Origin: a virus
Direction: 5' to 3' (one strand)
Virus record (IMG/VR): IMGVR_UViG_3300032116_000355
Span: 1 to 47,059 of that record
DNA: 47,059 nt
Shown here: positions 17,637 through 44,041 of the stretch, one piece after another
Position numbering within the stretch: position 1 is the first letter of the stretch
Layout: every line of letters begins with the position of its first letter
Position numbers and translations under genes: made by a program
Notes under the pieces: model-generated
The model's database searches: none
What the model saw: the letters and a program-made list of their open reading frames with translations, nothing else
What the model was told of the DNA's origin: nothing

Positions 17637-17912
17637 TTACGTTTTAGGGACTGTTATCTTTCTTCCAAAACTACCCCGAAGCATTTCTTGTCTTTGCCCT
17701 GGAGTAGTGCCTCCCCAAATACCATCTAGCGATCGACCTTGGCTTAGCGCATACTGCAAACACTCTGAGATTATGGAGCAACGGCTACATATATCTTTTG
17801 CTTGTTTTACAGTTGTGTGCCACTCCGAGATATAGTCTTTTGGAAAAAATATATCTGGTGAAGCTGCGGTGCACGGTTTTGGTACATCAAGGGGTAAAGC
17901 GTTTAAGGGCAT
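17637..17912 (-). CDS. WhiB-family transcriptional regulator
   Basis: The 91-aa protein has the four cluster-binding cysteines of the family (14, 42, 45 and 51), with spacing C-x2-C-x5-C for the last three. GIWGGTTPGQR at 64-74 corresponds to the usual G[VI]WGG turn, followed by a basic C-terminus (RGSFGRKITVP). WhiB proteins bind a [4Fe-4S] cluster and modulate the principal sigma factor. They are confined to actinobacteria and their phages and plasmids, so this is the best host evidence here. A phage copy may redirect host transcription or block superinfection, as for TM4 WhiB. It lies 12 bases downstream of the lytic transglycosylase gene, probably in one operon. Confidence 0.92.
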   Translation of the reverse strand: MPLNALPLDVPKPCTAASPDIFFPKDYISEWHTTVKQAKDICSRCSIISECLQYALSQGRSLDGIWGGTTPGQRQEMLRGSFGRKITVPKT

Positions 17913-33308: not shown

Positions 33309-33675
33309 ATTTAAAACTAAATACAATGTGTTTAACGACCTTGATGAGCTGTTTCCAAAAGATGTGGCAGACGTTAATGGTGTATACCTGCCAGAAACTT
33401 GGGACTGGAATGGTAGCTCTCAAATTACTGTCGATGATGTGATTATTTGGGAATGCTTGTATGAAGAGTCTGGGTTGTCTGGTATTTATGCTGCTTGGGC
33501 TCCTTATGCTGAACTTTATATTGTTACAGAACGTCAAGTTTCAATTAAAGAGTTTTTTGGCCTATCAGCTAAAAAATTAGTAGATGAGTATTGCGTTGCT
33601 AATGGTATCCCAGTACCTGTTCGATATACTAAGCACAAAACTAAATTTCTAGAGCTAGAAGGGGTGGCTATCTAA
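33301..33675 (+). CDS. 124-aa hypothetical protein, tail-module associated
   Basis: ATG overlaps the end of the 30723 gene and its stop overlaps the start of the 33675 gene by one base. The product is mixed alpha/beta with many aromatic residues (VYLPETWDWNGSS, WAPYAELYIV) and a basic C-terminus. Given its place between two huge fibre genes, it may be a fibre assembly chaperone or a small virion protein. No family recognised. Confidence 0.6.
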   Translation: MPRFKTKYNVFNDLDELFPKDVADVNGVYLPETWDWNGSSQITVDDVIIWECLYEESGLSGIYAAWAPYAELYIVTERQVSIKEFFGLSAKKLVDEYCVANGIPVPVRYTKHKTKFLELEGVAI

Positions 33676-36600
33676 TGCCAATTGATTTTACCGCAGCAGG
33701 CGGAACCGGTACCCATTCACTAGCTAAAACTAACGTAAACCTTGACGAAAACTTTATTTATTATCGTTATGGAATAGGCGTACCTGCTAACTTAATAAAT
33801 GGTCAACCTTATATTTTCCGTAATGGAACAGGTTCTTTAACCGGTCTTACTACAAATACTTTGTATTATGCAAAGTTCCCTCAGACTTCTCAATTGCAGT
33901 TTGCTACTAGCGCTGGTGGAGCTGCGGTTGATATTACAGCTTTTGGTGCTGGTAACGTTACTCTTGACACACCTTTTGTTTACAACAACATTTTAAACGT
34001 ACCAGCAACTTATTCTGATCAACAAGCTGTTAAGTACTATACAAACGGAACGCCTCTAACAGGCTTAGTTTCAGGTAATACTTATTATCTTAGAAATTCA
34101 AATAGTGGTTTAGGATCAGCTCCTGCTTACTCATTTACTACCGCTACATTTACAAATGCTGGAGCAGTAGGTGCCGCAGGCCCAACCAGTGCAGCTGTTC
34201 AATCAGCATACTCAACAGCTGGTTATACATGGGCTGCTGCAAACGTTTCTCAAGGAGCTTTCCAAGGTTACCAAGACTGGGTTGTACCAGCTAATGGTAT
34301 TTATGAATTTGAAGTAAGAGGTGCTGGCGGACGTTCTCCATCTAACAGCGGTGCTGGTGCAGGTGGAGCCATTGTTAAAGGCCGCGTATCTCTTACAAAA
34401 GGCGAGATTATTACAATTGTTGTTGGTCAACTTGGTTCAAATGCCGGAGTAGATGGTGTTTACCCAGGATCGTCTGGTGGTACTTTTGTTGTTCGTAAAA
34501 CAGGAAACGTTCCTTTACTTGTAGCGGGTGCTGGTGCATCTGCGGTTAATGGTCAAACCGCTCCAGCTACAGCTATTACTACAGCTGGTGCAAGCGGACA
34601 ATACGCTGGTGGTACTAACGGCTCTGGTGGTATAGCAGCAGCTGACTCAGCTGGTGGTGCTGGTGGTGGATTCCTAACTGCTGGTGGTTCAGGCTACGGC
34701 GGTGGCGGTGGAAGTTTTGCTAACGGTCTTGTTGGAGGTAACGGTACATCTGGCGGTTCAGGCGGAGGTACTGGAGGCTTCGGCGGAGGCGGCGGTGGAG
34801 ATGGTTCTGTCCGCGGCGGTGCAGGCGGTGGTGGTGGATACTCTGGAGGTGCTGGAGGTAACAGCGCTAACCAGACCGGTGCTTATCATGGTGGTTCCTT
34901 TATTATCTCTTCTGCAACATCTGTTGCAACATCTACCGGTCTTTATGACGGATCATCTACATTTAACGGAACCAATATTGTTAATTTGGGTACATTTAAC
35001 CCAGCAAACACAGCTGGTTCAGTTGTAGCTACTCTTGTACAAAGCACAGGTCTTGGATTTACATTCCACCCAACAGCTGCTGATGCAAATGCTAATACAA
35101 ATACATTAGCAATTACACCTCAAGGCACTCAATACCACGCTGTTGTTCCAATTACATTAGATCTTGAAAACAATACAATTAACACCACTTCTGCACATGG
35201 TTTAATTTCTGGAGATGCTCTTACTTATCGATTTACTGGGGCTGCTGCTTCACCTCTTGCTGTTAATACTACTTACTATGTAAATAAAGTTAACAATTAC
35301 ACTTATAAGCTTAGTACAACCCCTTCACCTACATTTACTGATGTTGATTTTACTCGACCATCTTCAGCAATTGCTGAGTCTTTTGGAAAAGTAATTGTAA
35401 ACCCAGCAACCGATATCATTACAATTCCTAGCCATGGTTTCTTGGTAAATCAGCCTGTAAACTATCAAGTATCAGGAAGCACACTTAAATCAATTGCTTC
35501 AATTAGCCGTACTGGAAATGTTGCTACTGTTACTACAACAACAAACCACAATTTTGTTACTGGCCGTAATATAATTATTGAAGGTTCTGCAAATTCAGAT
35601 TTAAACGGTACATACACAATTACAAACACCGGAAACACAACTTTTACGTATACAACAACAACCACTGGAAACTTAACTTCTATTCTTGGTGGAACAGCAA
35701 ACGTAAACCACAACGTCCCTATTACTTCAGCTTCTCGTTCTGGGTCTACTGTAACCGTAACCACAACAATTCACGGATTTACAAACGGTCAAACAGTTAG
35801 AATTGCTGGAGTTTCAGCTGATCTAAATGGTACCTATACAATTACATCAGTACCAAATACCACATCATTTACATATTCAACCCCAACAAGTGGAAGTGTA
35901 ACTATATCTGGCGCGGGAACAGCTGCTGTAAACGTAGCAATTGCACCTTTGCAAGACAATGCAACTTACTACGTAAAGACCGTGGTTGATGCTAATAACA
36001 TTAGACTTAGCCAGGCCCTTAATGGCCCAGCTATTGACTTTACCGATGCCGGATTAGGAACAGCTCATTCATTCCTTTATGTTGTAGTAAACCTTGTAGA
36101 AGACAGCCTATACATCCCAGGTCATGGCTATGTAACAGGAACTAAACTTGTATACGGTAATGGTGGCGGAGCTAGTATTGGTGGCTTGACTAACGGTGCA
36201 ACCTACTTTGTATTTAAAGTTGATGACAACATTATTAAGCTAACAAGTACTGTTGGCGGCCCAATTATTAACCTTACTACACTTGGTAGCGGTAACCACA
36301 CTCTTACAACAAATGCTGTGGATTTTGTTACTAACCAAATTGCTATTCCAGACCACGGATTTAGCCAAGGTGAGCTTGTTCAATACGACTCTGTCGGTCA
36401 AACCGTAATTAACGGTTTAGTTTCAGGTAACCCTTACTATGTAATTCTAATTGATGGTAACAATATTGCTTTGGCATCTACTCTTGTAAATGCTAGTGCT
36501 GGAACTCGAGTAGATCTAATTGCTTCTCCATCACCTGTAGGAACACATAAAATTCTATCTCTCAGCAAGTCACCGGACGGCACTTACACAGTGGCTTCTG

Positions 36601-39600
36601 TGCCTAGCACAACTACCTTTACTGTAACAGCTAATGGTTTTGTGCCAACAATTGTTAAATCGTTTAACCCACGTCGCGTAGTTAACTTACAACAAAACAC
36701 CATACAAGTTCTATCGCATGGTTTTATTACCGGAACAAAAGTAACCTACTCTCATGGTGGAGACTCTGCTATCGGAGGTCTAACCAGCGGAACTGATTAC
36801 TACGCTATTAACTTAACCAAAGACTATATTCGTCTTGCCTCTTCTGCGGAAAATGCAAGCTCTGGTGTACCTATAACCTTAACTTCTTGGGGTGCCGGTA
36901 TCGGTCACTCTCTGACTACATCTCAAATTAACGGATATGTAACAGGATCTGGAACAGTAAGTGTTAACTCTGGCTCTACTCTTGTAAACGGTACTGGAAC
37001 AGCATTCTCCAAGATCTTAAAGAACGGTGACTTGTTTAGATTGTTCCCAGCAGATACCGTTGTATCTAGCACTGGAATTGGAACAGCGGCTATTGCCGTA
37101 AATCCAACAAATACATTTACAATCACCGCTCATCCATTTGTTACTGGTGATAACGTTATATTTGAAACAACTGGAACAGCCCCTACTGGTTTGGTTGCTG
37201 GTTACTACTACTTTATTCGTAAAATTGATAACAATACTATTAAACTGTTTAACTCAGCCGCTGATGCCTCTTCCAACACAAACCCAGTAACATTTACAAC
37301 TGTTGGTTCTGGAACTGTTAGCTTCCATAAGAACACACCTAATGCACCAATTATTCGTAAGATTACAGCTATTGGTTCTGACTCACAGATTACTGTTGAT
37401 CGTCCATACGCTACTTCCTTCTCAGGTCGCTCTTACTCATACGCAACCTTTATCTACGTTCGCCCACAGGGCTACAGCCTACACCGTCCATTTGACGGTG
37501 GTGTTGAAATGTCCGTTGGTACTAATACATCGTTTGGTCAGATCATTCGTCAAACACGTAAGTACTTCCGTTACCAGTCAGGTAAAGGTCTACAAACATC
37601 ATTTGGTATTAACTTTAAACCAACTATTGATATTGAGAACTTGGTTAGAGTTTCTTCAACCACGTTCCAATGTACAACACGCAGACCTCACAGCTTAATT
37701 AGCGGTCTAACTGTAAAGATTTCTGAGGCAGAAACCTCAACCGGAGCACCTAGCACAGTGTTTAACGGTAACTTCCAAGTGACTGTTCAAGATCCGTTTA
37801 CATTTACATGTATCGCTTCAACCAACATCCCTACTGGAGTCGAGTCTACAGCTTACGGATTCCCACAGTTTAACGTTTTGCAATGGCAAAACGGAGCAAT
37901 TCGTGCCGGTATGTTTGACTTCCAGAATGGTATGTTCTTTGAGTTTGACGGACAAAAGTTATATTGCGTACGTCGTTCTTCAACACAGCAGCTAGCTGGT
38001 ACAGCCTCAGCTCTTCAAGGTTCTGAGTTTGTATTTGGTACAGGTACAGCTTTTACAAAACAACTTGATCCAGGTGACATGATTGTTATGCGCGGTCAGT
38101 CTTACAAGGTTTCAAGTATTCTCAGCGACACTCGTATTACAGTTAAGCCTGAGTACAAAGGGTCTTCTGGATCAGAAGTTGAATTTATCCCAGGAGACGG
38201 AACTACAGGTGTTGTAAGAACAGCAACTAGTACTTTTGTTATCCAAAGTCATGGTTTGACACAGTTACTACCGGTTGTTTATAACTCTATTGATGGAACT
38301 CCAATTGGTGGTCTTATTAATGGACGTACTTACTACGTAGATGTTGTAGACAACAACAGTTTTGCTCTTAAGGCAACCCCAGACGCAGTATCTGATGTAA
38401 CTATTTCAACTCCTGGATCTGGCTTCCCTCACTCCTTTACACCTGCAAAGAGCGGTATTATCATCACTAAGACTGTTGATACACGTACTCCTCAAGAAGA
38501 GTTCTCAATTGACAAGCTTGATGGAACTGGCCCAACCGGCTACAACATTGATCTTACAAAGATTCAGATGGCTTATATTGACTATTCTTGGTACGGAGCT
38601 GGAAAGATCCGTTATGGATTTAAGACTCGTCAAGGTGAGGTTCAATATTGCCATGAGTATATCCACAACAACTTTAAACTTGAGTCGTACTTCCGCTCAG
38701 GTAACTTGCCTACCCGCTACGAAGTAGCAACTTTTGATACACCAACCTACATCCCATTCCTATTCCACTGGGGTACTTCGGTTATTATGGATGGTAAGTT
38801 TGATGATGATAAAGCTTACTTATTTACTCAAAATAGCCAGACACTTCAAGTTGCTGGTACTACCGCTAAATCCTTTGGATCTAGAGCGGTTACTCTTGCT
38901 AATGATCAAGTCAACATCTCAAGTCATGGTTTTAACACAGGAGATGCCGTAACTTACGTTTCTTTGCAAGCTAACGGCCAAGTTGGTTCTAATAGCCTTA
39001 ACCAAGCTATTACTTCACAAGCTGCTTACGCATTTACCCGCATGCAAAATAACAGCACATTTTATGTACGAGTTATTGATGCTAATAACATTCAGCTGCA
39101 CCCAACTTTGGCAGATGCTGGATCGGGTACAGGCGCTGGTGGAACTAACCGTATTGACTTTACTAGCCAGGGTAACTCTGAATATACCTACTACCTATAC
39201 CCTCTAGGATCTTCAAATAACACATCTGGTACAAACTACCAGCCACTTCTATCCCTACGACTATCTCCTTCTGTATCTTCTGGTTTGACCGGACGACTGG
39301 GAGACCGAGATATTATCAACCGTATGCAGTTGGCTATTAAAGAACTTGCGGTATCTACAACTAACCTTGTGGACGTTAAGGTGCTTATTAACCCTCGTCT
39401 TAATAACCTTAATTTTGCAAGCGCACCTGTACCATCACTTACTCAGTACATTCAGCATACGCTTAATGACACTGTATCTGGAGGAACTCAGATTTATAAC
39501 TTCCGTGCAGCGGGTGGAGCTAACAACGCTGAGCTTGCTTCTACAGTGGCTCTAACCGATCTTTACGATATTGGTAACTCTATCCTTGGTGGAGACAGCG

Positions 39601-39704
39601 TATTCCCTGATGGTCCAGATATCTTGACTATTGCGGTAGCTCGTTTGACCGGTAACACTACACTTACATCAGCAAAGTTAACTTGGACTGAAGCTCAGGC
39701 ATAG
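33675..39704 (+). CDS. Giant modular tail protein (2009 aa)
   Basis: The product contains about ten copies of a beta module of 50-70 residues with SHGF, V-x-Y, GGLTNGATYF and DNNxIxL signatures (for example residues about 495-545, 800-860, 880-930 and 1000-1055). A glycine-rich domain (about residues 195-410) has an N-terminal strand VPANGIYEFEVRGAGG. A conserved block HRPFDGGVEMSVGTN, RQTRKYFRYQSGKG (about residues 1270-1310), known to me from many aquatic phage tail proteins, is followed by more modules. The modules probably form a long filament or tip. It begins the fibre cluster leading to the paralogues at 39714. Confidence 0.75.
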   Translation: MPIDFTAAGGTGTHSLAKTNVNLDENFIYYRYGIGVPANLINGQPYIFRNGTGSLTGLTTNTLYYAKFPQTSQLQFATSAGGAAVDITAFGAGNVTLDTPFVYNNILNVPATYSDQQAVKYYTNGTPLTGLVSGNTYYLRNSNSGLGSAPAYSFTTATFTNAGAVGAAGPTSAAVQSAYSTAGYTWAAANVSQGAFQGYQDWVVPANGIYEFEVRGAGGRSPSNSGAGAGGAIVKGRVSLTKGEIITIVVGQLGSNAGVDGVYPGSSGGTFVVRKTGNVPLLVAGAGASAVNGQTAPATAITTAGASGQYAGGTNGSGGIAAADSAGGAGGGFLTAGGSGYGGGGGSFANGLVGGNGTSGGSGGGTGGFGGGGGGDGSVRGGAGGGGGYSGGAGGNSANQTGAYHGGSFIISSATSVATSTGLYDGSSTFNGTNIVNLGTFNPANTAGSVVATLVQSTGLGFTFHPTAADANANTNTLAITPQGTQYHAVVPITLDLENNTINTTSAHGLISGDALTYRFTGAAASPLAVNTTYYVNKVNNYTYKLSTTPSPTFTDVDFTRPSSAIAESFGKVIVNPATDIITIPSHGFLVNQPVNYQVSGSTLKSIASISRTGNVATVTTTTNHNFVTGRNIIIEGSANSDLNGTYTITNTGNTTFTYTTTTTGNLTSILGGTANVNHNVPITSASRSGSTVTVTTTIHGFTNGQTVRIAGVSADLNGTYTITSVPNTTSFTYSTPTSGSVTISGAGTAAVNVAIAPLQDNATYYVKTVVDANNIRLSQALNGPAIDFTDAGLGTAHSFLYVVVNLVEDSLYIPGHGYVTGTKLVYGNGGGASIGGLTNGATYFVFKVDDNIIKLTSTVGGPIINLTTLGSGNHTLTTNAVDFVTNQIAIPDHGFSQGELVQYDSVGQTVINGLVSGNPYYVILIDGNNIALASTLVNASAGTRVDLIASPSPVGTHKILSLSKSPDGTYTVASVPSTTTFTVTANGFVPTIVKSFNPRRVVNLQQNTIQVLSHGFITGTKVTYSHGGDSAIGGLTSGTDYYAINLTKDYIRLASSAENASSGVPITLTSWGAGIGHSLTTSQINGYVTGSGTVSVNSGSTLVNGTGTAFSKILKNGDLFRLFPADTVVSSTGIGTAAIAVNPTNTFTITAHPFVTGDNVIFETTGTAPTGLVAGYYYFIRKIDNNTIKLFNSAADASSNTNPVTFTTVGSGTVSFHKNTPNAPIIRKITAIGSDSQITVDRPYATSFSGRSYSYATFIYVRPQGYSLHRPFDGGVEMSVGTNTSFGQIIRQTRKYFRYQSGKGLQTSFGINFKPTIDIENLVRVSSTTFQCTTRRPHSLISGLTVKISEAETSTGAPSTVFNGNFQVTVQDPFTFTCIASTNIPTGVESTAYGFPQFNVLQWQNGAIRAGMFDFQNGMFFEFDGQKLYCVRRSSTQQLAGTASALQGSEFVFGTGTAFTKQLDPGDMIVMRGQSYKVSSILSDTRITVKPEYKGSSGSEVEFIPGDGTTGVVRTATSTFVIQSHGLTQLLPVVYNSIDGTPIGGLINGRTYYVDVVDNNSFALKATPDAVSDVTISTPGSGFPHSFTPAKSGIIITKTVDTRTPQEEFSIDKLDGTGPTGYNIDLTKIQMAYIDYSWYGAGKIRYGFKTRQGEVQYCHEYIHNNFKLESYFRSGNLPTRYEVATFDTPTYIPFLFHWGTSVIMDGKFDDDKAYLFTQNSQTLQVAGTTAKSFGSRAVTLANDQVNISSHGFNTGDAVTYVSLQANGQVGSNSLNQAITSQAAYAFTRMQNNSTFYVRVIDANNIQLHPTLADAGSGTGAGGTNRIDFTSQGNSEYTYYLYPLGSSNNTSGTNYQPLLSLRLSPSVSSGLTGRLGDRDIINRMQLAIKELAVSTTNLVDVKVLINPRLNNLNFASAPVPSLTQYIQHTLNDTVSGGTQIYNFRAAGGANNAELASTVALTDLYDIGNSILGGDSVFPDGPDILTIAVARLTGNTTLTSAKLTWTEAQA
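34256..34905 (+). repeat. Glycine-rich coding segment inside the giant tail protein
   Basis: This segment encodes a run of Gly, Ala, Ser and Asn with repeated GGGGG and GGTGG-like stretches, beginning with an ordered strand pattern. It matches the glycine-rich fold of adhesin tips and resembles the C-terminus of the 30723 protein, so the two genes share a domain type. Confidence 0.65.
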
Positions 39705-39713
39705 GAGGCGCCC

Positions 39714-40235
39714 ATGGCCATAACCCGTCTTGGAGTTGCGAACCCAGCCGCAAATGTTGCTACGGCTTTGTATGTAGCAAGTTACGCTACTTTAGCTTCT
39801 GTCATTGTTGCTAATAAGTCTGCTAGCACCTCTGTTCTACCCAAAGTAGATATATATGTTGTCCCAGCTGGAACAAGCCAAGAATCTCAATATGGATACA
39901 TAGTTGCAAATTTAGAAATTCAAGCGGGTCAATCGTTTGAAACAATGAAGTTTGCAGTCAATGCCTCAGACAGTGTATTTATCCGATCAACTACTTCTGA
40001 CACCTCTTTTTCGGTAAACGGGATCATTCAGGCCGATGATTACGGTGCGGGAGACTACCCACTAACATTTACTAATAAAACAATCAATGGGGATGCAAAC
40101 ACCATCTACCTAGAATCAAACACAACCGCAAGTAGACCTGTAACCGCACAAGTTGGGTATTTAAGATACAATACTGATTTTCAAGCGTTAGAAGTTTTAA
40201 CTTCAGTTGGGTGGAAGACGGTGAGTGCTAACTAA
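39714..40235 (+). CDS. Fibre/adhesin-like protein A (tandem paralogue)
   Basis: The 173-aa product starts MAITRLGVANPAANVATALY and continues as beta strands ending with VGYLRYNTDFQALEVLTSVG. The first roughly 100 residues match the N-terminal part of the next gene (RLGVANPAAN against RLAIANPSAN, GQSFETMKFAV against GQSFETFKVAL), so the pair are paralogues. GGAGG precedes the ATG. It is probably a small virion protein; function unknown. Confidence 0.65.
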   Translation: MAITRLGVANPAANVATALYVASYATLASVIVANKSASTSVLPKVDIYVVPAGTSQESQYGYIVANLEIQAGQSFETMKFAVNASDSVFIRSTTSDTSFSVNGIIQADDYGAGDYPLTFTNKTINGDANTIYLESNTTASRPVTAQVGYLRYNTDFQALEVLTSVGWKTVSAN

Positions 40236-41113
40236 TGCCAGTATCACGCCTTGCTATTGCAAACCCATCAGCTAACCTACAAAGCACTCTATATACTGCT
40301 GATAAAGCTTATATTGTTGCTGTTGTTGCAGCTAATAAAGGATCAAACCCTGTACTAGTTGACATTGCAATTGTCCCTCAAGGAGAGTCTTTAAGCACAG
40401 CCGGTTATATTGTAAAAAATTTATCCGTAGCCGGAGGGCAATCTTTTGAGACTTTTAAAGTTGCTTTAAGTGCTGGAGACACTATTAGTGTTCTTGCTAG
40501 CACAGGTTTTGCTTCATTTTCAGTAACCGGTCTTTATGAAACCCAAGGCCGACAGCTTGTTAGCGTAAAAGCTACTGCTCCAAGTGACCCTCAAATAGGA
40601 GACATTTGGATCAACTCTGTAACAAATACGACATCGTTTTGGTCAGGATCAGCTTGGAATACTTCTGTAAGCGTAGGTCCTACAGGCCCTACGGGTGCAG
40701 CTGGAACAAACGGTGCAACAGGAGCTACAGGGGCTACAGGACCTACAGGACCTTCTGGCGGGCCTACTGGCCCTACCGGAGCTACAGGACAAAACGGATT
40801 AACTATTGTTGATACTTTTAACGTAGTAAACAGCGGAACCGTAGCGTATGTGGTTAACGGTACAAGTAACGCAACCCTTACTGTTGTTCGCGGTTACTCT
40901 TACTTCTTTACTATCAATACCTCTGGAAGCAACTTCTTTATTAAGACCGCTCAAACAACCGGTCTATCTAATCAATATGGCCTTGGTGTAACCAATAACG
41001 GCACAGCTACGGGTGGTATCCTTTGGACAGTCGACGCGGGAGCTCCAAGCACCCTCTATTACCAGTCTCAGCAAAACGCTGGGCAGACAGGCACTATTAA
41101 CGTAATAGGCTAA
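40235..41113 (+). CDS. Fibre-like protein B with collagen repeats and cupredoxin-like domain
   Basis: The ATG overlaps the previous stop. The N-terminus is paralogous to the 39714 gene. A short beta module with IGDIWINSVTNTTSFWSGSA and a collagen-like stretch of about 40 residues (GPTGPTG) follow. The C-terminal roughly 95 residues match the outline of phage cupredoxin-like domains: NATLTVVRGYSYFFTINTSG, NNGTATGGILWTVDAGAPST and LYYQSQQNAGQTGTINVIG. In copper-binding members Cys and His stand where this protein has YYQSQQN, so metal binding is probably lost and the fold is purely structural. Confidence 0.65.
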   Translation: MPVSRLAIANPSANLQSTLYTADKAYIVAVVAANKGSNPVLVDIAIVPQGESLSTAGYIVKNLSVAGGQSFETFKVALSAGDTISVLASTGFASFSVTGLYETQGRQLVSVKATAPSDPQIGDIWINSVTNTTSFWSGSAWNTSVSVGPTGPTGAAGTNGATGATGATGPTGPSGGPTGPTGATGQNGLTIVDTFNVVNSGTVAYVVNGTSNATLTVVRGYSYFFTINTSGSNFFIKTAQTTGLSNQYGLGVTNNGTATGGILWTVDAGAPSTLYYQSQQNAGQTGTINVIG

Positions 41114-41130
41114 CTAACATAAGGACCATA

Positions 41131-42687
41131 ATGTCGGACCAAAGATCTCTTAAAAACATTGTTATTGTAGGCGGCGGTACAGCTGGTTGGATGACAGCTT
41201 TGTACGTCCAGCGTGTTCTACCAACTTCTACTATTACTTTAATTGAGTCTGAAGAGATTGGTATCCTTGGCGCCGGAGAAGGCTCTACCCCACAGCTTGT
41301 AAACTATTTAGACTTTGTAGGAATCCCTGCATCTCGCCTTGTAAAAGAAGCAGCAGCTACCATTAAAAATGGTATTAAATTTACAAACTGGAGAAACGAT
41401 GGAGATTATTACTACCATTCATTTTTAGCTTATCGTCAACTAGGGTTTGATGGATGTAACGTTGATAAAAAATACTTATCTACAGACGCCGCAGTTGCAC
41501 TTGCTTGGTCTAAAGATGAGAACTTAAACAATCTTGATTTTGTAGCAAAAGTCTCTGAGTCTAATAAAGTCCCGTTTATTTATAACCAAGACTATGATGG
41601 TTCTAGAGATCCTATTTTAAAATTTGATAATTTAGCCAACTTTTCGTTGCACTTTAACGCTTCAAAACTTGCAAAATGCTTAAGAGGCATAGCGGAAGAG
41701 CGGGGAGTTAAAAGAATTGAAGGGGTGGTTACTGGGTTTACCGAAGACTCATACGGAGATATTCGAACAATTAAATTAAAAAACACTACTGTAAAAGCAG
41801 ATTTTGTTTTTGATTGTTCAGGGTTTGCTCGCCTAGTTATCGGTGGACACTATAAAGCTGATTGGAAAAGCCACTCTGACCTTCTCCCTGTAGATTCAGC
41901 CGTACCATTTTTTGTACCAATTAACGATAAGAAGATACCAGCATACACAGAAGCTATAGCTATGAAATATGGCTGGATGTGGAGAATACCAACTAGAGAT
42001 CGTTTTGGTTGTGGGTACGTATATGACTCAACGCTAATCTCGGAAGAAGAAGCTGTTAAAGAGATTGAAGAGTATCTTGGTTTTGAGCCTGAGTATCCTC
42101 GTAAAAACAAAGGCGGATTTAAGTTTAAAGCTGGGTATTACAAAACCCCTTATGTAAAGAATTGTGTTGCCGTAGGTCTTTCATCTGGTTTTATTGAACC
42201 ACTTGAAGCTACCTCAATCTGGGTTGGACTAGAGTCTTTGCAAACAGCTTTAGCAAACATAGATATCTTAACCTCTAGAGATCAAGAGCTTGCGGATAAA
42301 TATAATGAACGTTTCCGAGCCATGAACGACAGCATTGTTGAGTTTATTTACTTTCACTATACCTCCGATCGGTCTGACACCCCATTTTGGGATAAGTTTA
42401 AAGACAAGGACAAAGCTCCAGACTTTGTTAAGTATCTAACTAATGTTTGGTCTAAACGCCTACCCCAAGCAGATGACCACGTCGGTAAGCATTGGGCTAT
42501 GGAAAGTTGGCTAGTAGTTGGCAGCGGTATTGGCGCCTTTGACACATCCGTTGCTAAACGCGTTGTTGCTGTAAACCCAGCTATTGGACTATCTGACTCT
42601 TTGTATGAAGAATTTAAATCACGACAAGATTTGGTATCCTCCTCTTGTTCAGATCACGCTATATTTCTTAAGGAGCTTGCAAAGTGA
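41131..42687 (+). CDS. Flavin-dependent tryptophan halogenase homologue
   Basis: The 518-aa protein matches the Trp_halogenase family (usual length 500-540). Visible motifs are FAD-binding VGGGTAGWM (13-21), GAGEGSTPQL (48-56), TIKNGIKFTNWR with Lys 79 in the position of the catalytic Lys, GWMWRIP (282-288), the family's WxWxIP motif that keeps the flavin from acting as a monooxygenase, and SGFIEPLEATSIW with Glu 360 where the catalytic Glu lies. These enzymes use FADH2, O2 and halide to make HOX, which halogenates the substrate. A reductase is normally required and none is seen here. A phage halogenase (VirX1, cyanophage Syn10) is known. The substrate is unknown. GTG of the next gene overlaps its stop. 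Confidence 0.9.
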   Translation: MSDQRSLKNIVIVGGGTAGWMTALYVQRVLPTSTITLIESEEIGILGAGEGSTPQLVNYLDFVGIPASRLVKEAAATIKNGIKFTNWRNDGDYYYHSFLAYRQLGFDGCNVDKKYLSTDAAVALAWSKDENLNNLDFVAKVSESNKVPFIYNQDYDGSRDPILKFDNLANFSLHFNASKLAKCLRGIAEERGVKRIEGVVTGFTEDSYGDIRTIKLKNTTVKADFVFDCSGFARLVIGGHYKADWKSHSDLLPVDSAVPFFVPINDKKIPAYTEAIAMKYGWMWRIPTRDRFGCGYVYDSTLISEEEAVKEIEEYLGFEPEYPRKNKGGFKFKAGYYKTPYVKNCVAVGLSSGFIEPLEATSIWVGLESLQTALANIDILTSRDQELADKYNERFRAMNDSIVEFIYFHYTSDRSDTPFWDKFKDKDKAPDFVKYLTNVWSKRLPQADDHVGKHWAMESWLVVGSGIGAFDTSVAKRVVAVNPAIGLSDSLYEEFKSRQDLVSSSCSDHAIFLKELAK

Positions 42688-42968
42688 AATTTAGAACTCA
42701 GTGGATTACTGCCCTTAAAAGCATGGGTAAACGGCAATACTGGAACCGCCCAAACACTGTAGAGTTTTTTGCTTTTATGACAAAAGCAGCAATCATTATC
42801 CCCGGTCTTCTTTTTGAAACACAGTTTTGGTGGCTTTACATTTTTGCTCTTGTAACAAGCCTTGCTCTTATTTGGTCCTCAACAGTTAAGACGTTACCTA
42901 CAATTATTTGGTTTAATATCATCTGGTCAATTCTAGCTACAGCAGCATTGGTTAAGCACTTTGTATGA
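42684..42968 (+). CDS. 94-aa membrane protein between halogenase and glycosyltransferase
   Basis: GTG start overlapping the halogenase stop (GTGA); its own TGA overlaps the next ATG (ATGA). The product has a basic amphipathic N-terminus and two to three hydrophobic segments (FAFMTKAAIIIPGLLF, WWLYIFALVTSLALIW, TIIWFNIIWSILATAALV). No family recognised. Overlaps on both sides suggest its product works with its neighbours, possibly tethering the modification enzymes to the membrane, but that is speculative. Confidence 0.65.
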   Translation: MKFRTQWITALKSMGKRQYWNRPNTVEFFAFMTKAAIIIPGLLFETQFWWLYIFALVTSLALIWSSTVKTLPTIIWFNIIWSILATAALVKHFV

Positions 42969-44041
42969 AAGTAGCTGTTTATTCGATAGCTCTCAACGAA
43001 GAGAAATTTGTAGAGAGGTGGTATGAGTGTGCCAAAGAAGCTGATTATTTACTTATTGCTGACACTGGTTCTAGCGACCGCACTATCGAGCTTGCTAAGT
43101 CTCTTGGTATTAATGTAGTTGAAATTTCAATTAAACCTTGGAGGTTTGATGATGCTCGTAATGCTAGTCTCGCTGTTATCCCTGGGGATATTGATTACTG
43201 CATTGCTTTGGATCTCGACGAAACTTTAGTACCCGGTTGGCGTAAACACTTAGAAGTAGCTTACAAGAATAAGTGGACCCGCCCTCGCTATCTGTTTACT
43301 ACAAGTTGGAACCCAGACGGGTCTCCAGGTCTTCAATTTAGCGGTATCAGAATTCACGCTAGACAAGGTTATCGTTGGGTATACCCAATTCATGAGGTTC
43401 CTGAACCTTACGGTATAACACCTACCGAAGGTTGGATTGAGCTCCAAGCTGAGCATCACCCAGATAATACAAAGTCACGCGGTCAATACTTGCCGTTATT
43501 AGAGATAGCAGCTCGTGAAAACCCACTAGATGATCGATGTGCTTTCTACTATGGGCGTGAGCTCTACTTTAGAAATAGTCATCCAGCGGCAGCAAAAGAG
43601 TTTAAGCGCTATCTATCTTTAGAAAAAGCACAATGGTTACCTCAAAGAGCTGCGGCGTATCGATACCTTGCCTTGGTTGAGCCGGACAATGCCGAAGAAT
43701 GGAACTTACGTGCTATTAGCCAAGACCCAAGTCGCCGTGAGAGTTATGTTCAAACCGCAGAGTACTACTACAACAATAAACGTTGGGAGGAGTGCCTTAA
43801 GTACGCAGAGCTTGCGGTAGCTATTACTGAAAAGCCTTTAGATTATTTCTGCGAACCTTGGGCGTGGGACTTCCGGGCATATGACTACGCCGCTATTGCA
43901 GCTTTTTGGCTTGGAAAAACTGAGCTTGCCCTTACCTACGGTGAAAAAGCCCTAGAGGTAACCCCGACAGATGAGCGTTTACAGCGTAACCTTGAGTTCT
44001 ATAAAGAAAAGGATGGGACCAATGGATCAGACTCTATTTGA
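42965..44041 (+). CDS. GT2-type glycosyltransferase with C-terminal helical repeats
   Basis: The 358-aa product has a GT-A fold: VYSIALNEEKFVERW at 5-19, IADTGSSDRTIELAK at 31-45, FDDARNAS (61-68) and ALDLDE (81-86) as the DxD-type metal motif. From about residue 180 come TPR-like helical repeats (RCAFYYGRELYFRNSH, WEECLKYAELAVAI, YGEKALEVTP). GT2 enzymes transfer a sugar from a nucleotide-sugar to an acceptor; TPRs often recruit protein. The acceptor could be a fibre protein, a host surface glycan or the halogenase product. It overlaps the next gene's start by 20 bases. Confidence 0.8.
   Translation: MKVAVYSIALNEEKFVERWYECAKEADYLLIADTGSSDRTIELAKSLGINVVEISIKPWRFDDARNASLAVIPGDIDYCIALDLDETLVPGWRKHLEVAYKNKWTRPRYLFTTSWNPDGSPGLQFSGIRIHARQGYRWVYPIHEVPEPYGITPTEGWIELQAEHHPDNTKSRGQYLPLLEIAARENPLDDRCAFYYGRELYFRNSHPAAAKEFKRYLSLEKAQWLPQRAAAYRYLALVEPDNAEEWNLRAISQDPSRRESYVQTAEYYYNNKRWEECLKYAELAVAITEKPLDYFCEPWAWDFRAYDYAAIAAFWLGKTELALTYGEKALEVTPTDERLQRNLEFYKEKDGTNGSDSI

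Follow-up and report, generated by a model that had tools for sequence, protein, structure and literature searches.

Flavin-dependent halogenases of variant A (PF04820; PrnA, PyrH, RebH, Thal and BrvH) have in common their fold, an FAD site, a WxWxIP motif and a catalytic lysine and glutamate. Those acting on free tryptophan (groups A and B of PMC8269204) are recognised by a motif named Trp4, and enzymes without this motif take indole rather than tryptophan as substrate (PMC8269204). Halogenases also occur in phages: prnA was noticed in cyanomyoviruses, as reviewed since at least 2010, and the role of phage halogenases in infection has been open ever since (PMC2984593); of 153 cyanophage genomes, 20 were counted as carrying a halogenase (PMC10452541), and the actinophage DSL-LC01, assembled from a metagenome, was noted to have one as well (PMC10611076).

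Here we analysed a 47,059-nucleotide stretch of a virus record (IMG/VR IMGVR_UViG_3300032116_000355), hereafter the window, which carries an enzyme that shares the fold, FAD site, WxWxIP motif and catalytic residues of the variant A halogenases, and that differs from their tryptophan enzymes in having no Trp4 motif, in being phage-borne and in being paired with a small predicted membrane protein, here named MEM. Both the enzyme family and the kind of carrier are known; the arrangement of halogenase and membrane protein as a portable pair is one that we believe to be undescribed, and we found no paper on it in the literature searched, which does not disprove that one exists. The best explanation, to which we assign a probability of roughly 55%, is that the intact halogenase and MEM constitute a two-gene accessory cassette whose enzyme is fed with flavin by the host, is associated with the membrane and acts on an aromatic other than tryptophan.

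The halogenase and its phage relatives

The gene (positions 41131 to 42687, plus strand) is complete and encodes 518 amino acids with zero internal stops. In a Pfam profile search the product matched PF04820 (Trp_halogenase) over residues 9 to 479 with 360.9 bits (E = 1.3e-107; the cut-off is 21 bits), and in PHROGs it matched phrog_2928 'tryptophan halogenase' (E = 2.1e-106); its sequence matches in the PDB are tryptophan 5-, 6- and 7-halogenases. The FAD-binding GGGTAGW occupies residues 14 to 20, where the GxGxxG motif is met as G14GGTAG, the WxWxIP motif reads WMWRIP (282 to 287), and the third motif of the family, of the Fx.Px.Sx.G type, is found as F354..P357....S362...G366. The first-pass annotation of this DNA had reported a halogenase with GGGTAGW, Lys 79 and GWMWRIP, all of which are borne out by the profile match and by the location of these residues, but its 'Glu 360' was wrong by four: the catalytic glutamate is E356, inside an EPLE motif, and residue 360 is alanine. 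K79 and E356 are invariant throughout an alignment of 54 phage and bacterial relatives. The structure prediction and alignment that the annotation had proposed as a check gave a lysine at position 79 and an FAD site in its place, the AlphaFold2 model (mean pLDDT 93.1) aligning to the solved structures of Thal, PyrH, PrnA and RebH with TM scores of 0.81 to 0.86. Purifying selection was detected on both the halogenase and the MEM genes. Judged by its sequence, the product is a genuine flavin-dependent halogenase whose family membership is established, and its active site is predicted to be catalytically intact.

The same annotation considered halogenases to be rare in phages, which is refuted by the 63 deposited phage records, mostly cyanophages, and the at least 208 IMG/VR loci (one scan) that matched the window halogenase. 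The best cellular relatives found are about 31 to 37% identical to it. In a tree of 116 rows, obtained by a quick search with SH-aLRT supports, the window enzyme falls in a first phage clade (clade I; 30 rows, support 99), whereas VirX1 of cyanophage Syn10 (row L355b, confirmed to be PDB 6QGM) falls in a separate, well-separated one (clade II; 20 rows, support 100). VirX1, which had been offered as the known example to compare with, is consequently not the closest relative. The two are nevertheless alike in being phage-borne, in their active-site motifs and in the lack of Trp4, and some members of the VirX1 clade also adjoin MEM, although none stands beside VirX1 in Syn10. Syn10 itself has two tandem halogenase genes (L355, 3482-6587), and the PDB entry of VirX1 corresponds to the one whose annotation reads only hypothetical protein.

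The halogenase of Pelagibacter phage HTVC008M is the top-scoring deposited phage protein (39% identity) and also belongs to clade I, but it has no MEM and adjoins terminase and neck genes. Actinophage DSL-LC01 shows the gene order of the window, with fibres, halogenase and glycosyltransferase; its halogenase differs in being 34% identical to that of the window, in having no MEM and in having WVSKIP in place of WxWxIP. This last protein (L082, 12001-13572) also sits on a long branch, and its activity may have been changed or lost.

A small membrane protein accompanying the halogenase

MEM (42684 to 42968, plus strand) has 94 amino acids and a GTG start that overlaps the halogenase stop by 4 bases (42684-42687), and its own stop overlaps the ATG of the following glycosyltransferase gene by another 4 (42965-42968). 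The coupling of the halogenase to a membrane protein and a glycosyltransferase, proposed in the first-pass annotation, is real as far as the 4-base overlaps are concerned; what was missed is that MEM, rather than the fibre or the glycosyltransferase, is the near-invariant partner. Of the 80 closest halogenase loci in IMG/VR, 79 matched its profile (the exception being L074), and gene clustering placed it as the direct downstream neighbour of the halogenase in 79 of 83 loci, counts that do not represent independent events because the loci are redundant. The overlap measures 4 bases in most loci, other values resulting in part from the start-codon choice of the ORF caller. Among the named phages, the MEM profile was not detected in DSL-LC01, HTVC008M or S-H38.

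Searches of other collections with MEM gave no match in Pfam, PHROGs or PDB families, nor among deposited phages. MEM was likewise found neither near 80 cellular halogenases nor in 24 whole genomes carrying cellular halogenases, and sampling of the phylum of a Streptomyces (397 genomes) and of that of Aquisalinus (399 genomes) did not reveal it either (a bacterial genome search of about 800 genomes in all, in which the positive control detected 6 of 6 viral records).

A scan with MEM itself yielded 554 confirmed stretches, with a halogenase adjacent in 75 of the best 80, loci being redundant here too. When a divergent MEM was used, the adjacent halogenase was present in 42 of 79 loci, and in the remaining ones MEM lay near the gene families c93 or c136, had a halogenase at a greater distance or on the opposite strand, stood alone or was cut by the contig end. 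With copies of MEM next to c93 or c136 that have no halogenase beside them, MEM may have a part in some wider pathway; these copies speak against the cassette explanation, as do the halogenases of L074 and DSL-LC01 that have no MEM. The two uncharacterised families (c93 = phrog_17480; c136 = phrog_7084, weakly DUF6065) are found clustered with MEM and phage halogenases (L164, 3273-4707). Relatives of c136 are found in many haloarchaeal tailed viruses, for example as gene 40 of HSTV-2; among deposited phages c136 is almost solely in such viruses, and c93 is in one roseophage.

MEM is conserved more strongly than the halogenase, and it accompanies halogenases of both clades, the starred branches of the tree forcing at least three label changes. 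Two clade II loci (L148 and L161) have a MEM 79% identical to that of the window and halogenases only 27% identical to the window enzyme, while the MEMs of some clade I members are less close to it (for example L011, 66%; L002, 67%). Since synonymous sites between the MEM genes of the window and L161 are saturated (dS 2.29, dN 0.17), this similarity across clades reflects strong constraint, probably with reshuffling, rather than recent transfer.

The model of MEM (pLDDT 69.5) comprises helices at residues 3-13, 22-43, 49-65 and 72-93, and the residues invariant among 46 diverse members include Y19, W20, N24, E27, K34, W49, W50, K69, P72, N78 and W81. The retention of charged and polar residues within predicted helices suggests that MEM is more than a passive anchor. 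In size and three-helix layout it resembles the half-transporters of the SemiSWEET, PQ-loop and mitochondrial pyruvate carrier families, to which it has zero sequence or profile similarity; SemiSWEET and pyruvate-carrier proteins were among its top fold matches in two libraries, at non-significant scores (best PDB E = 3.3). Homology to either is not supported, as there was no Pfam or PDB profile match and hhalign scored no better than with shuffled sequences. A transporter function suggested by the predicted fold is accordingly a lead only.

We consider it an even bet that MEM defines a previously undescribed two-component phage halogenation system, in which a single, near-invariant MEM works with halogenases from both distant clades, and perhaps with c93 and c136, by positioning them at the membrane or moving their substrate or product, and in which the pair spreads among phages as a cassette.

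The gene slot, tail fibres and tailoring enzymes

The halogenase had been described as lying directly after a fibre cluster, and this cluster is confirmed immediately upstream, all on the plus strand: a large virion or fibre protein of 2009 amino acids (33675 to 39704; phrog_5838 and phrog_1645, virion structural; phrog_2885, baseplate wedge), a tail-fibre-like protein of 173 amino acids (39714 to 40235; PHROGs) and, next to the halogenase, a collagen-like tail fibre protein of 292 amino acids (40235 to 41113; Pfam and PHROGs). On the other side is a family 2 glycosyltransferase with a TPR-like C-terminus (42965 to 44041, plus strand; phrog_13126). A sibling phage (L245) corresponds to the window as far as the fibre stop at 41113, and does so again from the glycosyltransferase start at 42965, with 12 bp between. 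The sibling is without exactly the halogenase-MEM pair (block 41114 to 42964), loss and never having gained it being indistinguishable. The glycosyltransferase is conserved beside the slot with or without the halogenase, and in two further phages (L248, 1438-2756; L249, 4683-6001) the slot contains no halogenase-MEM pair and holds instead a DUF6065-like (c136-like) gene and a methyltransferase-like gene, as assigned by sequence resemblance to c136 and to the methyltransferase of L074. With other genes taking the place of the pair in these phages, this position is a hotspot for gene exchange. Another locus (L096) combines a different halogenase, c93, MEM and the same glycosyltransferase family. 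The G+C content of the cassette genes is 0.38 to 0.40, against 0.42 to 0.45 in the flanks. The cassette occupies several sites, of which the junction between fibre and glycosyltransferase is one, and this location alone is not enough to tell what the substrate is.

Such a location raises the possibility, doubtful in our estimation, that the enzyme takes part in fibre maturation, halogenase and glycosyltransferase modifying tryptophan or tyrosine residues of the adjacent fibre proteins. Fibre, halogenase and glycosyltransferase genes are syntenic in the window, L011, L063, L074 and DSL-LC01, fibre-like genes also flank loci of clade II and of MEM such as L162/L164, L305 and L354, and the slot of L248 and L249 holds other candidate modifying genes. 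However, fibre-like genes were present within 4 kb in a minority of relatives, namely in 3 of 27 rows of clade I and in 5 of 18 of clade II when a limited set of fibre seeds was used, and on these counts fibre association was rejected as a generally defining context. Moreover, the fibre protein of L245, a phage without the halogenase, keeps all four tryptophan positions of the window fibre, which argues mildly against the fibre as dedicated substrate, and a membrane partner would be unexpected if a virion protein were modified in the cytoplasm. Fibre modification, suggested in the first-pass annotation, is thereby weakened though possible. The pairing with so small and highly conserved a membrane protein makes it more likely that the enzyme acts on a small molecule or at the membrane of the host than on tail fibres only.

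The remaining neighbours of the halogenase-MEM pair vary among phages and include APS kinase, DUF2061, SDR, GlcNAc transferase, sulfotransferase-like, nuclease and fibre genes. In many relatives the DNA upstream of the pair encodes DUF2061, a sulfotransferase, an Asp/Asn hydroxylase and an APS kinase-like protein whose C-terminal part is nucleotidyltransferase-like, a set resembling a sulfation or tailoring module (L062, 6768-7526; L065, 7801-8016; L022, 5813-6409; and L028, 6425-6988). In one locus (L320, 3992-6901) MEM is followed by a short halogenase-like protein of 398 amino acids and a carbamoyltransferase-like gene.

It is similarly doubtful, and slightly more so, that the halogenase is just one of several interchangeable enzymes (methyltransferase, sulfotransferase, carbamoyltransferase, hydroxylase and glycosyltransferase) that tailor a surface glycan or a secondary metabolite during infection, the target being a host surface molecule or a metabolite. 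Enzymes of these kinds do recur adjoining halogenase-MEM pairs, and for the gene cluster that holds the halogenase in jumbo cyanophages, Iyer and colleagues proposed either a secondary metabolite or decoration of the capsule (PMC7824862). Yet neighbours differ between phages while MEM stays, so that no fixed pathway is visible, and a common acceptor was not identified. If the tailored molecule were linked to the membrane, this explanation might overlap with the membrane-associated cassette that we favour.

Substrate, flavin supply and host

The Trp4 motif is absent from the window halogenase and from every phage row of the alignment; in the same alignment two bacterial rows used as positive controls (L209 and L215) match it exactly and a third (L229) nearly. 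Since enzymes without this motif use indole instead of tryptophan (PMC8269204), we infer from the sequence that free tryptophan would not be the natural substrate. That the enzyme makes chloro- or bromotryptophan, to serve as a precursor or an antimetabolite, is consequently very improbable, in spite of the tryptophan 5-, 6- and 7-halogenases being the nearest solved structures and of His96 and Phe98 being retained at the Trp2 region. Equally improbable is a repurposed flavin monooxygenase or oxidase, for even though activity cannot be proved from sequence and the related DSL-LC01 protein has the degraded motif GWVSKIP, the window enzyme has its three signature motifs, K79 and E356 intact and under selection.

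In the case of the flavin, Flavin_Reduct (PF01613) was not found in the window, itself a fragment, and neither this family nor FMN_red (PF03358), the two reductase families tried, was found in 13 related phage records. The earlier view that no flavin reductase is encoded nearby and that one from outside is needed is thus supported, and FADH2 is most likely supplied by the host.

Within the cassette explanation, the host would provide FADH2 to the halogenase, which would generate hypohalous acid and hand it to Lys79, and an electron-rich aromatic other than free tryptophan would be halogenated. MEM would be required in order to hold the enzyme at the inner membrane beside a membrane-bound substrate or to carry substrate or product across; both the membrane action and the substrate are what we infer. 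Under this explanation, interest would turn away from fibres and free tryptophan and towards substrates that are transported or linked to the membrane. A small partner that is constant while most else changes offers a direct handle for co-expression, localisation and product searches, and the phage loci indicate a large set of uncharacterised enzymes predicted to be inactive on free tryptophan.

With regard to the host, the virus is one of freshwater bacteria. A WhiB-like gene is located in the window (17637 to 17912, minus strand), WhiB-like genes recur near relatives, and among the named relatives of the module the nearest is an actinophage, so that an actinobacterial host is likely.
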